Source: a virus
IMG/VR virus record: IMGVR_UViG_3300030328_001409
Location: 1-32,140 of that record
Reading direction: 5' to 3' (one strand)
DNA: 32,140 nt
Part shown: one piece after another, positions 6,850 to 13,382 of the stretch
Layout of the letters: every line of letters starts with the position of its first letter
Position numbering within the stretch: position 1 is the stretch's first letter
Program-made: the position numbers and the translations under genes
The notes under the pieces: generated by a model
What the model was told of the DNA's origin: nothing
Databases searched by the model: none
The model's input: only the letters and a program-made list of their open reading frames with translations

Positions 6850-7101
6850 ATGTCAAGAACTAACGCACTCGCTTATACACAAAACATGAGACCTTACGGT
6901 CAGCCAGCAGAAAATTTTAGAGATGCTACTCCACGCCCTCAAGCGATTGGGCCGAACAGAAATGTTCGTCAGGTGGCAGATACCAGCGTGATCGCTCCTG
7001 TGTATGATTCAAATATTTGTTCTGCGTCTAAAAAGAATGGTGAACCTTGTAAGGGGCATAGGGTTGCGGATAGCGAGTTTTGTTCTTTTCATAGAGGATA
7101 G
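6850..7101 (+). CDS. Small protein with C-terminal Cys/His zinc-binding motif
   Basis: An 83-residue protein. The first 50 residues are polar, Pro/Asn-rich and probably disordered. The C-terminus carries C57-x9-C67-x10-C78-x2-H81 (CSASKKNGEPCKGH...CSFH), with H70 as a further candidate ligand. This resembles the short treble-clef-like Cys/His modules seen in many phage proteins. It lies between the capsid and connector genes, so it may be a head protein, but no specific function can be assigned. The ribosome binding site is weak (AAAGAATAAAG). Confidence 0.65.
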   Translation: MSRTNALAYTQNMRPYGQPAENFRDATPRPQAIGPNRNVRQVADTSVIAPVYDSNICSASKKNGEPCKGHRVADSEFCSFHRG

Positions 7102-7109
7102 GGGTTTTA

Positions 7110-7808
7110 ATGCAGTTATCTGAAATGCGTGATTACGCTAGAAACGTTGTTGATATTGATTCAACAGATATTTCTGATGCTACGTTAAATCATTTTATCA
7201 CTGAAGGCTATAACCTTATTATTCATTCTGAGAAACGTTGGCCGTTTCTTGAAACTTCAACTACTTTCTCAGCAACTGCTGACACGAAAGACTACACGTT
7301 AACGACTGTTGGTACTTCTGTAACGAATGGTTTACGGGAAATTAACAGTATAAGAACTGAAGATCATGTTCTTGAATTGATTGGTTCAGACGACGGAGAC
7401 ATCATGTATCCGTTAGATACAAACACTACTGGTGAGCCTTGGTACTGGTCTTACTGGGGTGAATCTGTTCGGGTGTATCCTACTCCTGATGCTACGTATA
7501 CGATGTATGTTCGTGGTTATCGCAACGCTGCTCCTTTTGGGACTGGAACTGCTGATGATACTACTCCTGATTTGCCTGATCCTTTTGACAATGTGTTGAG
7601 TTTGTACGCTATTTACCGCTGTTATCAGCAGCAGGAAGATGGCGGCATGGCGCAACAGTATTATGTTCAGTTTGTGGGTGAGTTAGGCAATTTGGCTGCT
7701 CGTTACAATGACACTCCGGCTCCTCAACCTATGATTCTAAATAGTCGCAGGGTTAGCAAGTGGATGAGCCAATATTTGCCTGCTCGTTTACGTTACTCTT
7801 GGGAGTAA
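7110..7808 (+). CDS. Head-tail connector / tail tubular protein A-like
   Basis: A 232-residue protein with an N-terminal helical part (MQLSEMRDYARNVVDI, then LNHFITEGYNLIIHSEKRWPFLE) and a beta-rich middle (DYTLTTVGTS, DGDIMYPLD, EPWYWSYWGESVRVYPTPD). The C-terminal segment is helical (SLYAIYRCYQQQEDGGMAQQYY). This arrangement matches T7 gp11-like adaptor proteins that attach below the portal in short-tailed phages. It precedes the larger nozzle-like protein by 3 bases. The call rests on pattern and position; no catalytic motif is expected. Confidence 0.65.
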   Translation: MQLSEMRDYARNVVDIDSTDISDATLNHFITEGYNLIIHSEKRWPFLETSTTFSATADTKDYTLTTVGTSVTNGLREINSIRTEDHVLELIGSDDGDIMYPLDTNTTGEPWYWSYWGESVRVYPTPDATYTMYVRGYRNAAPFGTGTADDTTPDLPDPFDNVLSLYAIYRCYQQQEDGGMAQQYYVQFVGELGNLAARYNDTPAPQPMILNSRRVSKWMSQYLPARLRYSWE

Positions 7809-7811
7809 CGT

Positions 7812-9503
7812 ATGGCTTTAGATGATCACATTCCGCCTGCTAGTAGCGGAGAGCCTTATCGTTATGAGGAATTAAAAGATTTTACTGGTGGTTTGAACCT
7901 TAGATCGGATCAAACGTCTTTGGGTCCGTCGGAGTCTCCTGCGATGTTGAACGTTGAGGTTGATCCACGGGGCGGTATTGCTCGCCGTGACGCTATTGAT
8001 GCGTTGAACGCTTCTGCTTTGGGTGAAATTCTTAAAATTTCTTCCCATCATGAAACTACTGGCGATAATCAGATTCTTGTCGCTGCTAAGGATAGTTCTA
8101 ATACTGGTTTATATTATGGTTCTGGTGGTAATTTTACTCGTATAAATACTAGCGCTAGTGGTTCTGGTGTTGCTTTGGCTGGTCATGCTTTGCCGGGTTT
8201 TGTCACGTTTAATGATGAAACATATATTTGTAATGGGACGTTGTTTGAGACTGATAAGTCTGCTGTGAAGTGGACTGGCGCTAATAGCGCTTCTGTGTTG
8301 ACTCCTCCGACTGATGATTCGGCTGGAAGGTTTCCTTTGTCTCGCTTGATGTGTACTTGGGGTGAGCGTGTTTGGGTTGCTAATACTAAAGAAAATCATA
8401 CTGGCAGTTGGGTAACTCACGCTAACCGTATTCGTTGGTCTAAGATAGATAAAGGTGATACGTGGGAAAACGATTCCTATATAGATATTGATATTGGGGA
8501 ACATGGCGACCACATAACCGCTATTGTCCCTAATGGTGATCGTTTACTTGTGTTCAAAGAGAACGCTGTTTACGGCGTTTACGGGTTTGATTCGGATTCT
8601 TTTCAAGTAATTAACTTGACAAGAATCGCAGGAAGCATAGATGACTGCACTCCTGTTGCTTCCCCTATGGGTGTTTTCTTTTGGTACGCTCAAGAAGGCG
8701 TGTACAAGTTAAGTACAGAGTCTTTAGAATACATGTTCCATCCTATTAAACCGGCGATAACGAGAAGTCAGTTAACGTTCACTGGCGTTCCTTCTTTGAT
8801 GTGGCATGGTAATCGTTTATGGGTTTCAGTTGATTACCAGTCTGGTGATGAGATTCAAAACTCTAATCAGGTGAACCGCCGTAACGTTTTTGTTTACGAC
8901 CCTTCTTTGGGTCAGGGCGGTAGTTGGACTCGTTTTGATATTAATGCCCGTAATTTGTTTGCTTATAAACCGCCGGGTGGAACTCATTTAGGTTTGGCTG
9001 CTACTTCTGACGTTGTGTCTACTGTTACGACTGCTGCGTTTACTCGTGTGTGTAAGGTAGATATTGACGCTGATGTGGACGATTATACTGGCGCTCCTTC
9101 TAATAGCCAGATTTATTCTTTTTATCAGACTCGCTGGTTGGAGGGTAATCGCCCCACGTTTAATAAACGGTGGGGCAAGACACGCACGGTGTTGTTGGCT
9201 GATAACACTGTTTCTGTCCAGATGAAGATTTACAAGGATTATAATACTGGTAGTGAAACGAATACTTTGTCGCAGCAGATTACTGGTGAGGCTTCTTCTG
9301 CTGCTTGGGGTTCTGCGACGTGGGATTCTGATTCTTGGGTTTCTTTTGGTGATTCTCAGATTTACAAGTTCTTTAAGTGGCCTTCTGCTGGGACAGCAAA
9401 GGCTATATCTATAAGGTTTAATGTTGAACCAAGCACGAATAACAACGGTAAGTGGGGTTGCACTTCTGTGGTTGGGATGTATCGGACTAGGAGAATAAGG
9501 TAA
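7812..9503 (+). CDS. Tail nozzle / tail tubular protein B-like
   Basis: A 563-residue, beta-rich protein. It opens with KDFTGGLNLRSDQTSLG and SPAMLNVEVDPRGGIARRD, a signature I associate with T7 gp12-like nozzle proteins of podoviruses. These build a beta-propeller ring distal to the adaptor. Repeated strand-turn units follow (LPGFVTFNDETYICNG, GERVWVANTKENH, GDRLLVFKENAVYGVYGFD, HGNRLWVSVDYQSGDE), consistent with propeller blades. The C-terminus is a separate beta domain. It shares its stop with the next start (TAATG at 9501-9505). A tail identity fits the connector gene before it and the fibre genes after it. Confidence 0.65.
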   Translation: MALDDHIPPASSGEPYRYEELKDFTGGLNLRSDQTSLGPSESPAMLNVEVDPRGGIARRDAIDALNASALGEILKISSHHETTGDNQILVAAKDSSNTGLYYGSGGNFTRINTSASGSGVALAGHALPGFVTFNDETYICNGTLFETDKSAVKWTGANSASVLTPPTDDSAGRFPLSRLMCTWGERVWVANTKENHTGSWVTHANRIRWSKIDKGDTWENDSYIDIDIGEHGDHITAIVPNGDRLLVFKENAVYGVYGFDSDSFQVINLTRIAGSIDDCTPVASPMGVFFWYAQEGVYKLSTESLEYMFHPIKPAITRSQLTFTGVPSLMWHGNRLWVSVDYQSGDEIQNSNQVNRRNVFVYDPSLGQGGSWTRFDINARNLFAYKPPGGTHLGLAATSDVVSTVTTAAFTRVCKVDIDADVDDYTGAPSNSQIYSFYQTRWLEGNRPTFNKRWGKTRTVLLADNTVSVQMKIYKDYNTGSETNTLSQQITGEASSAAWGSATWDSDSWVSFGDSQIYKFFKWPSAGTAKAISIRFNVEPSTNNNGKWGCTSVVGMYRTRRIR

Positions 9504-10489
9504 TGGCAGATTTAAGTACGGGGTCGGCGTTTGTGGCTGGTACCACGATTGTGGCTTCAGCGATGAATACCCGGTTTACTAATATAGAAACTTGGGCTAA
9601 AGGTACCCCTGATTTAAGTACTTCTGGGTCTATGACTACGGTTAAGGGTACTTTGAATGTTGATGAGGCGGTTACGTTTGATGCTACTTTGGGTGTGACT
9701 GGTACTGCAACGTTTTCTGGGAATATAGATGTTGATGGTACAACTAATCTTGATGCTGTAGATATTGATGGCAATGTTCAACTTGATGGCACGTTAACGG
9801 TTGGGGTTAACGATACAGGTCATAACGTGACATTTTATGGTGCGACTGATGGGGCGTACATGAAGTACGATCAAGCCGCTGATAGATTAATTGTTTTAGG
9901 TGGTGAAATAGGTATTGGTACTGCTTCTCCTGCTAAGCCACTTGATATTGTTACAGCAAGCGGTGATGCTTATATTAAACAAAGCGATGGCACGACAACT
10001 ACTGTTTTTGGTCCTGCTGGAAACTCTTCTGCTTTATGGGGTACTACCTCTAATCACGACATTTATTTTATTGTAAACAATACAGAAAAATTAAGATTAA
10101 AAGCCGATGGTACTTTAAACAGTTCTAAAACTTATACTACTACGACTAGTACATCCGCAAACATGGTTGTTGATTCTTCACCTCAAGGAGATTTCAAACG
10201 TTCTACTTCTTCTATAAAGTTTAAAACAGATGTTGAAACAATGGATGACGATTCCGCTGATGCGGTGTTAAATCTTCGTCCTGTTTCTTACAAGTCTTTG
10301 TGTTCTGGCGATGATAAAGATAGATCTCATTGGGGTTTTATTGCTGAGGAAGTTGTTGAAATTGATTCTCGTTTAGTGCATTTTGGTCCTAACGGAGAAG
10401 CAGATGGTGTTCAATATGACCGTGTTATACCTGCCTTAGTGAATGTTATTAAGCGTCAGGAAGCACGAATAACAGCGCTGGAGGCATAA
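9503..10489 (+). CDS. Tail fibre/spike with C-terminal S74 chaperone domain (fibre 1)
   Basis: A 328-residue receptor-binding type protein. The middle is a run of short beta repeats (LDVDEAVTF, ATLGVTGTATFSG, IDVDGTTNLDAVDIDG). A module TVGVNDTGHNVTFYGAT...MKYDQAADRLIVLG is also present in fibre 2. The last 100 residues are a peptidase S74-type intramolecular chaperone: SSIKFKTDVETM, then LRPVSYK, WGFIAEEVVEID and a terminal coiled coil VNVIKRQEARITALEA. In this family the chaperone trimerises the fibre and then cleaves itself off next to a Ser. Start and stop both overlap neighbouring genes by one base (TAATG). Confidence 0.85.
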   Translation: MADLSTGSAFVAGTTIVASAMNTRFTNIETWAKGTPDLSTSGSMTTVKGTLNVDEAVTFDATLGVTGTATFSGNIDVDGTTNLDAVDIDGNVQLDGTLTVGVNDTGHNVTFYGATDGAYMKYDQAADRLIVLGGEIGIGTASPAKPLDIVTASGDAYIKQSDGTTTTVFGPAGNSSALWGTTSNHDIYFIVNNTEKLRLKADGTLNSSKTYTTTTSTSANMVVDSSPQGDFKRSTSSIKFKTDVETMDDDSADAVLNLRPVSYKSLCSGDDKDRSHWGFIAEEVVEIDSRLVHFGPNGEADGVQYDRVIPALVNVIKRQEARITALEA

Positions 10490-10719
10490 TGGGTGCCGAA
10501 ATCATCGGCGCAGTCGGGCTAATCGCAGCCGCAACTGTAAGCGGCATCTTAGCGTTGCTGGGCAAACGATTTCGGGACGAAAACAATGAGCAACACGCTC
10601 AAAATTTAACCATGTTGGAAATGATTATAGATGATGTTGGAGAAGTAAAAGATGACGTGCGCGAAGTCAGAGACTCGCAAAACCGGCATCTTGAGTGGCA
10701 CTTGGAGGAGGCTGAATGA
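10489..10719 (+). CDS. Small membrane-anchored coiled-coil protein
   Basis: A 76-residue protein with one N-terminal hydrophobic segment (IIGAVGLIAAATVSGILALL, residues 4-23), then a basic KRF and a charged helix that continues to the end (MIIDDVGEVKDDVREVRDS). The form is that of small phage membrane proteins between fibre genes, some of which act as holin/antiholin or lysis accessories. No family is certain. It is coupled on both sides: TAATG with fibre 1 and ATGA (10716-10719) with fibre 2. Confidence 0.65.
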   Translation: MGAEIIGAVGLIAAATVSGILALLGKRFRDENNEQHAQNLTMLEMIIDDVGEVKDDVREVRDSQNRHLEWHLEEAE

Positions 10720-13382
10720 GTATCCCAAAATTTCAGGTACAAAAAAACCTTACACCACCCGCTACTATCGCGATTTCGGGAAGTCCCGATTACGTCGGAA
10801 CATACGGGTCTGGCACAACGTACGCCACTGGTGATGTAGTCACATACAACGGTTCGTCGTATGTTGCTAGACAGGCGACAACTGGTAACACTCCGGGCGA
10901 TACTGCTTATTGGCAGACTCTTGCTTCTCAAGGTAATACTGGCGCTCAGGGTCCGACTGGCGCTCAAGGCGCGGCTGGTGCTGCTGGAACTAACGGTGTA
11001 ATCAATACTCTTACGGCTGGCACTAATTTGAACGGTGGAGGCTCTGCGTCCACCGTGACAGTAAATCTTGATTCAAGTATTTCTTTGACTTCTGCAACGT
11101 TTTCTGCTGCTAGTCCTCTTATTTTTGAAGGGGCTACACCTGACGCTCATGAAACCACTATTGCGGTGACTGATCCGACTGGAGATCGTACGGTTACGAT
11201 TCCTGACGGTTCGGGAACGATTGCTTATTTGGATAGCAACATTACTGGTAATGCGGCAACTGCTACTACAGCGACTACGGCTACTAACGTAACCGCTACT
11301 GCTAATAATACTGCTGACGAGACTGTTTACTTGACGTTTGTAGATGGTGCTACTGGCAGTCAAGGTGTTGAGACTGATACTGGGTTGAATTACAATCCTA
11401 GTTCTGGTGTTTTGACTACGACTTCTGTGACTGGGAACCTTACAGGTAATGTGACAGGCAACATTTCTGGAACGTCTGGTTCCACTACGGGCAATGCGGC
11501 TACGGCTACAGCATTGGCGACTGCGAGAAATATTGGTGGGGTGAGTTTTGACGGTACTGCTAGTATCAATTTGCCGGGGGTAAATACTGCTGGTAGTCAA
11601 GATACTTCTGGTACTGCTGCTGAAGCAACAAATGTTACTGCTACCGCTAATAATACTGCTGATGAAACAGTTTATTTAACATTCGTGGACGGTGCTACAG
11701 GTACGCAAGGCATAGAAACTGACACAGGTTTAAACTATAACCCTAGTTCTGGAGTGCTTACTACTACTTCTGTTACCGGAAACTTGACTGGTAACGTGAC
11801 AGGGAATGTAAGCGGATCTGCTGGATCTACAACTGGTAATGCTGCTACGGCTACGGAGGCTACTAATGTTACAGCAACTGCGAACAACACCGCTAACGAA
11901 ACCGTGTACCTTACTTTCGTTGATGGGGCTACGGGGACTCAGGGAATTGAGACAGATACTGGCCTCAATTACAATCCGAGTACGGGGGTATTAACTACTA
12001 CTTCGGTTACAGGTAATTTGACTGGTAATGTTACTGGTAATGCTTCTGGTTCTTCTGGTTCTACGACTGGTAATGCCGCTACCGCTACTGCGTTAGCGAC
12101 TGCTAGGGCAATTAATGGTGTTGATTTTGATGGTACTGGTGCGATTACGGTTACTGCGGCTGCTGGTACTTTGACTGGCACGGAGTTGAAGTCTACTGTT
12201 GTGACTTCTTCTTTGACGAGTGTGGGTACTCTTAGCGCTCTTACTGTTTCTGGTACGGTTACGATGGATTCGGTTGGGATTACAGCGGTTCAGACTTCTG
12301 CGGAGTCGTTTGCGGATAATGATACTTCTTTGATGACGAGCGCGGCTATTGATGACAGAATCAATGCCGCTGGTGGTGGCGCGGCTGGTTCTAATACTCA
12401 GGTTCAATATAATAGTTCTGGTTCTTTTGCTGGTTCAGCGAATTTAACTTTTAATGGTACTACTCTTACTGCCAATGCTTTTTCTGGTCCTTTGACTGGG
12501 AATGTAACTGGTAATGTTTCTGGAACTGCGGCAACTGTTACTGGTGCCGCTCAGTCAAATATAACGAGTGTCGGGACTCTTACTGGTTTAAGTGTCACAG
12601 GTGCGGTGACGGTTGGGGTTGATGACACTGGGCATGATGTCAAGTTTTTTGGTGCTACTTCTGGTAAATACATGTTGTGGAATGAGGACGTAGACGAACT
12701 TGCCGTTTTAGGCAACATTGTTGTTGGAGCGGCTGCTATCACCAATAATGTCCATGAAATAGAGATACATAATTCTGACAGCGATACGGCTAGGTATTAT
12801 GCTAAAGGCGGCGGTACTGGTTACACCCATTCCGATATTCGTTTTGACGCTGATGGGTCTACTCGTGGCGCTGGAATGTATTGCTTTAACGAGGCAACAG
12901 ATAAAACTTGGTTTACTGGCAGCCCTTATAATGATGCTGACGAGTGGATTGTAGGTAGAGTTTCTAGCACTTCTTTTGCTGAATCAGCGGCACAGGATTC
13001 TAATCATTTAATGAAGTTAGAAAGTGACGGCGATTTAATTATCACTGGTTCTTTGACTGAAGGTTCTGACTCTCGTTTGAAAGAAAACATTACAAATGTT
13101 TCTTTAGGTCTTAATTTTATTAATTCTTTGACTCCTAGAGAGTACACAAAAGTGGGAAGGACTCGTACTCACATGGGGTTTGTAGCGCAGGAAGTTGAGG
13201 CTGTGTTGCCTGATGCTGCTGGTACTTCTTTATGGGTTAAAGAAACTGCGAATACTGCTGGTCCTGATGAAGCAGACAATTTTGTTGAAACTCAGGGGCT
13301 TCGCTATACAGAATTTATTGCACCGTTAGTTAAAGCAGTACAAGAACTATCTGCAAAAGTTGCGGTATTGGAGGGGGGATGA
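10716..13382 (+). CDS. Large repeat-containing tail fibre with S74 chaperone (fibre 2)
   Basis: An 888-residue fibre. Domains in order: an N-terminal segment; a chitin-binding-type (CBM5/12-like) module around residues 28-70 (YATGDVVTYNGSSYV, then YWQTLAS); a short collagen-like run of seven G-x-y triplets (about 72-93); and long Thr/Asn/Gly-rich repeats with three nearly identical 60-residue copies encoded at 11283, 11628 and 11862. Next come further VTGN...GTAATVTGAAQSNITSVGTL units, a module shared with fibre 1 (TVGVDDTGHDVKFFGATSG), and a C-terminal S74 chaperone (SDSRLKENITNVSLGL, MGFVAQEVEAVLPDA, coiled-coil end). Host recognition is the expected role, and the S74 domain would be removed by self-cleavage after trimerisation. 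The ATG overlaps the previous stop. Confidence 0.88.
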   Translation: MSIPKFQVQKNLTPPATIAISGSPDYVGTYGSGTTYATGDVVTYNGSSYVARQATTGNTPGDTAYWQTLASQGNTGAQGPTGAQGAAGAAGTNGVINTLTAGTNLNGGGSASTVTVNLDSSISLTSATFSAASPLIFEGATPDAHETTIAVTDPTGDRTVTIPDGSGTIAYLDSNITGNAATATTATTATNVTATANNTADETVYLTFVDGATGSQGVETDTGLNYNPSSGVLTTTSVTGNLTGNVTGNISGTSGSTTGNAATATALATARNIGGVSFDGTASINLPGVNTAGSQDTSGTAAEATNVTATANNTADETVYLTFVDGATGTQGIETDTGLNYNPSSGVLTTTSVTGNLTGNVTGNVSGSAGSTTGNAATATEATNVTATANNTANETVYLTFVDGATGTQGIETDTGLNYNPSTGVLTTTSVTGNLTGNVTGNASGSSGSTTGNAATATALATARAINGVDFDGTGAITVTAAAGTLTGTELKSTVVTSSLTSVGTLSALTVSGTVTMDSVGITAVQTSAESFADNDTSLMTSAAIDDRINAAGGGAAGSNTQVQYNSSGSFAGSANLTFNGTTLTANAFSGPLTGNVTGNVSGTAATVTGAAQSNITSVGTLTGLSVTGAVTVGVDDTGHDVKFFGATSGKYMLWNEDVDELAVLGNIVVGAAAITNNVHEIEIHNSDSDTARYYAKGGGTGYTHSDIRFDADGSTRGAGMYCFNEATDKTWFTGSPYNDADEWIVGRVSSTSFAESAAQDSNHLMKLESDGDLIITGSLTEGSDSRLKENITNVSLGLNFINSLTPREYTKVGRTRTHMGFVAQEVEAVLPDAAGTSLWVKETANTAGPDEADNFVETQGLRYTEFIAPLVKAVQELSAKVAVLEGG
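11283..11462 (+). repeat. Fibre 60-codon repeat, copy 1
   Basis: In-frame unit starting TNVTATANNTADETVYLTF and ending NLTGNVTGN. It differs from copy 2 at 2 of 60 residues, yet only 21 of 60 codons are identical by hand count. Confidence 0.9.
11628..11807 (+). repeat. Fibre 60-codon repeat, copy 2
   Basis: Same unit as copy 1 with S26T and V29I. Against copy 3 it has 58 of 60 identical residues but only 15 of 60 identical codons by hand count. Confidence 0.9.
11862..12041 (+). repeat. Fibre 60-codon repeat, copy 3
   Basis: Same unit with D12N and S41T relative to copy 2. Most conserved residues use a different synonymous codon from the other copies. Confidence 0.9.

Follow-up and report, generated by a model that had tools for sequence, protein, structure and literature searches.

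How did a single tail fibre gene come to carry three copies of a 78-aa unit which are nearly the same in protein and so different in their codons? The gene lies in a stretch of 32,140 nucleotides, here called the window, which is part of a 38,153-base virus record; genes for the portal and major head proteins are located upstream. It is the second of two consecutive fibre genes (9503–10489 and 10716–13382), each of which ends in an S74 chaperone domain, that of the repeat-bearing gene scoring 49.3 bits against a Pfam cut-off of 22. The window gene thus resembles other Peptidase_S74 fibres at its C-terminus and differs in its repeats, a feature which the definition of that family does not include. 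A search of PDB sequences with the fibre protein gave only a weak match, between its N-terminus and a chitinase, and an AlphaFold2 model of the 78-aa unit was uninformative (mean pLDDT 39). The features of the gene are collected in Table 1.

Table 1. Features of the repeat-bearing fibre gene, in window coordinates.
Feature	Position	Strand	Remarks
Tail fibre ORF, 888 aa, carrier of the repeats	10716..13382	+	PHROG tail-fibre matches; Pfam S74 chaperone
CBM_5_12 match, N-terminal, residues 30–67	10803..10916	+	In fibre ORF 10716–13382
Repeat copy 1, 78 aa	11280..11513	+	
Connecting segment ALATARNIGGVSFDGTASINLPGVN	11511..11585	+	40-aa repeat type of P1/Goslar-type fibres
Repeat copy 2, 78 aa	11625..11858	+	
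Repeat copy 3, 78 aa	11859..12092	+	Immediately after copy 2
Exchanged module	12063..12373	+	88% DNA-identical to L015 (contig of another phage) versus 81% to sister phage L002
Segment ALATARAINGVDFDGTGAIT...	12090..12179	+	Second element of the 40-aa type
Partial unit, profile positions 42–74	12456..12554	+	Weak match (11 bits)
Peptidase_S74 domain (intramolecular chaperone of endosialidase), residues 784–834	13065..13217	+	Pfam

Over the full 78 codons the three pairs of copies share 72, 72 and 73 residues (92–94% identity in protein) and 26, 24 and 22 codons, respectively. The corresponding NG86 values of pS are 0.80, 0.78 and 0.85, with dN at 0.061–0.064, and 61 of the 78 positions are invariant among 11 units from four phages. 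A sequence-only reading of this locus had made its counts over 60 codons. Its 58 residues and 21 codons for copies 1 and 2 were obtained again on recount; for copies 2 and 3 the 58 residues were confirmed and the shared codons came to 14 rather than 15, while its figure of 4 matches at 16 two-fold sites applies to a stretch of 66 codons, the value over 60 being 3 of 15. Copies 1 and 3 share 56 residues and 18 codons over the same 60. That reading was correct in regarding the protein as strongly constrained, and equally in setting aside gene conversion, since the codon identity of the copies is at chance and their synonymous sites are saturated; concerted evolution of that kind leaves copies alike in DNA, which these are not. 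Recent duplication of the window copies is likewise excluded. Residues 11–12 of the unit (11310–11315 in copy 1) are uniform within each phage, being TA in the window, SA in L002 and ST in L003, and the serines at these positions are specified by both TCN and AGY codons, which might point to matching of the copies at the level of protein without matching of their DNA.

Based upon a codon-usage null built from the window's own genes, 28.4–28.8 of the 78 codons would be expected to be shared, and the three pairs give z values of −0.6, −1.1 and −1.7 (−0.6, −1.2 and −2.5 over the 60 codons counted earlier). By this measure chance accounts for pairs 1/2 and 1/3, and pair 2/3 falls slightly short of it. 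A joint test over the repeat segments found 78 matches against 97.5 expected when codons were shuffled across the whole ORF (z −2.5, p 0.005) and 91.9 when they were shuffled within each copy (z −2.4, p 0.0045), these p values being uncorrected and the gene having been chosen by eye; the longest run shared by the repeats, 17 nt, is that of the null. For the window gene alone, sharing rarer than chance is a modest effect. The comparison of dS and dN with a codon-usage null, which the earlier reading had proposed, therefore bears out its basic observation: the copies do combine a nearly identical protein with fully randomised codons, and the striking point is this near-identity at full synonymous saturation rather than a large deficit of shared codons.

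A close relative, L002, permits the repeats to be compared with the genes which surround them. Between L002 and the window the capsid gene, and several others close to it, have codon identities of 0.90–0.96 at conserved residues, and dS is 0.13–0.14 for capsid and upstream fibre genes alike. Repeat 1 has the same place in both; it retains 93–95% amino acid identity (74/78) and only 0.32–0.54 codon identity, with a pS of 0.74 and a dN of 0.036. Divergence of the repeat is therefore not tracking that of the phages. Repeat 3 has a dS of 0.59 between the two, and the window's copy of it has 40–44 codons in common with that of L002 and with the one copy which L004 carries. A faster rate of synonymous change within the repeats was also considered; it is ruled out by L002 and L083, whose fibres are almost identical. 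By a count from the printed alignment, two of their units show 2/234 and 0/234 base differences, and the N-terminus of that gene shows more. Since these units are nearly unchanged, the difference between the window and L002 reflects a differing history of segments.

The window gene is a patchwork. Its exchanged module is nearer to L015, an otherwise unrelated phage, than to its close relative L002, which is the mark of mosaicism, and the fibres of L002 and L083 are 93–99% identical in DNA versus 82% for their other genes. For 201 pairs of loci the total DNA shared at 88% identity or more came to less than 1.2 kb. Whole units are also lost or gained. L083 is without exactly one 82-aa unit (246 nt) which L002 carries at its positions 7000–7245, and the junction coincides with 8 exactly matching nucleotides inside an imperfect 20-nt match; further unit-sized indels separate L077 from L078 (225 nt) and L293 from L296 (204 nt). 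These may be losses or gains, loss being the more parsimonious for L083 as both the window and L002 have a unit at that place. No donor of copy 1 or copy 2 turned up in this sample, the best DNA identity over the full unit being 78–80%, nor did one W1-like DNA pattern have a match in the viral collection. The motif GNAATAT was examined as a favoured exchange boundary and rejected, since 13% of boundaries lie close to it, compared with 21% for random placement.

Relatives of several unit families were collected by scans of viral contigs, and 18 phage-record regions were examined, with internal repeats detected by a diagonal scan after self-BLAST had missed them. Internal repeats of at least 80% amino acid identity with chance-level codons are common in related fibres, so that the check for the same pattern in related phages, which the sequence-only reading had suggested, came out positive. 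The pattern extends to cultured phage Goslar, with an observed/expected ratio of 0.98 over 14 repeat pairs, and repeat codons are near chance also in the isolates HdSG1, P-TIM68 and a P1-type phage. Other genes hold DNA-alike, apparently recent repeat copies. Modules compared across different phages are as alike in protein as copies within one gene, at 67–74 of 78 residues, and their codons are likewise at the null: in 5357 segments compared between phages the median ratio by gene was 1.05. The 78-aa unit itself occurs mainly in uncultured viral contigs and is separate from the 40-aa element.

In our opinion the three copies are probably one strongly conserved fibre module, brought together in this gene by recombination between phages, each copy with a codon history of its own. 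Purifying selection would hold the protein of the module across many phages while its synonymous sites become randomised, and recombination, by shuffling modules among phages, would then assemble fibre genes whose copies are alike in protein and unlike in DNA. The same-position difference from L002 is an observation; that copies 1 and 2 were themselves imported we infer. Units are in addition lost or gained by recombination at short homologies, as is seen in the relatives. Given such turnover DNA-unlike copies would be expected to last longer, and codon sharing might in this way be brought down to the chance level or a little under it, a step which we put forward tentatively. Besides the missing donors of copies 1 and 2, two observations sit poorly with import. 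Alone it does not predict the below-chance codon sharing that is strong in a few genes, and the agreement within each phage at residues 11–12 hints at a matching of proteins which random import would not predict. The sequence-only reading missed the recombinational patchwork, the occurrence of the module in many phages and, with these, the possibility that each copy has its own codon history.

Selection, or a loss of copies that depends upon their identity, might instead drive the codons of repeats apart, because repeats whose DNA is alike recombine with loss of a unit. Such avoidance could act on top of import or in its place, and we consider it possible though not probable; that the repeats of phage fibres have a single protein sequence imposed on them, with recombinational loss or a selection against such loss keeping their DNA apart and their codon sharing below chance, seems to us unlikely. 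A time-reversible neutral process cannot in theory fall below the null, and the few low genes therefore merit attention. When the one longest segment per gene was taken, 13 of 101 genes lay below z −1.645, compared to 2.7 in between-phage controls. The analytic null (the sum of squared codon frequencies) is biased upward for within-gene pairs, and correction of this finite-sample bias reduced the genes below z −1.645, −2.33 and −3 from 13, 6 and 3 to 10, 4 and 3 of 118. With 205 genes pooled and copy-specific shuffling, four (L370, L162, L214 and L264) were below z −3, at most 0.3 being expected. Copy-specific codon usage accounts for some low genes (L148 moves from z −2.1 to −0.15), but not for the window or L120. 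In L120, which is the same as L162, the longest shared run is 12 nt versus 20 expected (p 0.002); run-length tests become circular when the genes were selected by their low ratio, and such tests were left out. The unit-sized indels at short homologies add that a process of loss or gain exists.

Against this stands a pre-planned replication with 87 new genes, in which 2, 1 and 1 fell below z −1.645, −2.33 and −3, at most 4.4 being expected below the first of these, and the median z was +1.9. Selection for different codons, which the sequence-only reading had favoured, is consequently not supported as a general rule; what survives of its codon-usage argument is the uncorrected joint test in the window and a few related genes with z of −3 to −5. 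Furthermore, DNA-alike repeats are retained in many genes, codon sharing is independent of the spacing of repeats, neither of the sister phages L002 and L003 falls significantly below the null, some of the low genes are interrelated, and the longest run in the window is no shorter than the null. Selection against direct repeats was not found in mammalian mtDNA either (Lakshmanan et al. 2015, PMC4417187). Codon avoidance has some support, but for the window it is not an established claim.

Two individual genes may be described here. The strongest case of below-chance codon sharing is L120 (ORF offset 2295, 1942 aa), whose eight repeat segment pairs share 162 codons versus 220 expected (z −4.8). 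L370 of the replication set (ORF offset 2172, 2295 aa) has a single pair, sharing 15 of 66 codons where 28–31 are expected (z about −4).

The sequence-only reading had offered as its alternative very old duplications in place, under extreme protein constraint, with clock-like saturation of synonymous sites. The combination of pS values near 0.8 with a dN of 0.06 and the many invariant positions of the unit are what such duplications would leave. They are contradicted by the divergence of repeat 1 in L002, situated as it is among genes of low dS, unless that repeat was replaced in one lineage only and the duplications of the other are old, and near-identical fibres differ in their number of units; we hold this history to be improbable. 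An artefact, by which short-read metagenome assembly collapses DNA-identical repeats and leaves mainly re-coded ones visible, is suggested by the origin of the window and most of its relatives as uncultured viral contigs and may have inflated the share of re-coded repeats, but as an explanation it is very improbable, for cultured phages are alike in pattern, contigs also yield DNA-alike repeats, and a collapse bias should not affect runs of 12–20 nt.

Mosaicism of tail fibres is established. As in other cases of fibre module exchange, segments are common to otherwise unrelated phages and have a history unlike that of the rest of the genome; the window gene differs in holding several units, near-identical in protein, of different codon history. 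Our search of the literature found no report of protein-near-identical, codon-different repeat units inside one fibre gene. The connecting segments of the window fibre (ALATARxIxGVxFDGTxxI) resemble the consensus that finds fibres with the approximately 40-aa repeat of P1 gpS and Goslar, but the window protein has no match to Pfam PF03406 [Phage_fiber_2] even at an E value of 1, whereas the Goslar fibre matches at 2.7e-8, and the 78-aa unit is a separate one. Repeats within a protein have been compared as paralogues by dN/dS, with relaxed or positive selection reported between repeats (Persi et al. 2016, PMC5120217); the window repeats, with their low dN and synonymous sites beyond saturation, show the opposite tendency.

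If import is the correct reading, a phage protein may hold repeats which are almost identical and yet not each other's duplicates, with consequences for how repeat number, dN/dS and the origin of domains are read in fibre genes. Should the below-chance component hold in larger data, it would speak for recombination between repeats as a force on synonymous codon choice, one which is often assumed and has been little tested. Contigs of the same kind also contain repeats of another sort: in L055 (ORF offset 2) cysteine-rich repeats (PEPEDPCLNKPNSTYNSASDSCECNEGFED) share approximately 95% of their codons, and are apparently the product of a recent duplication.
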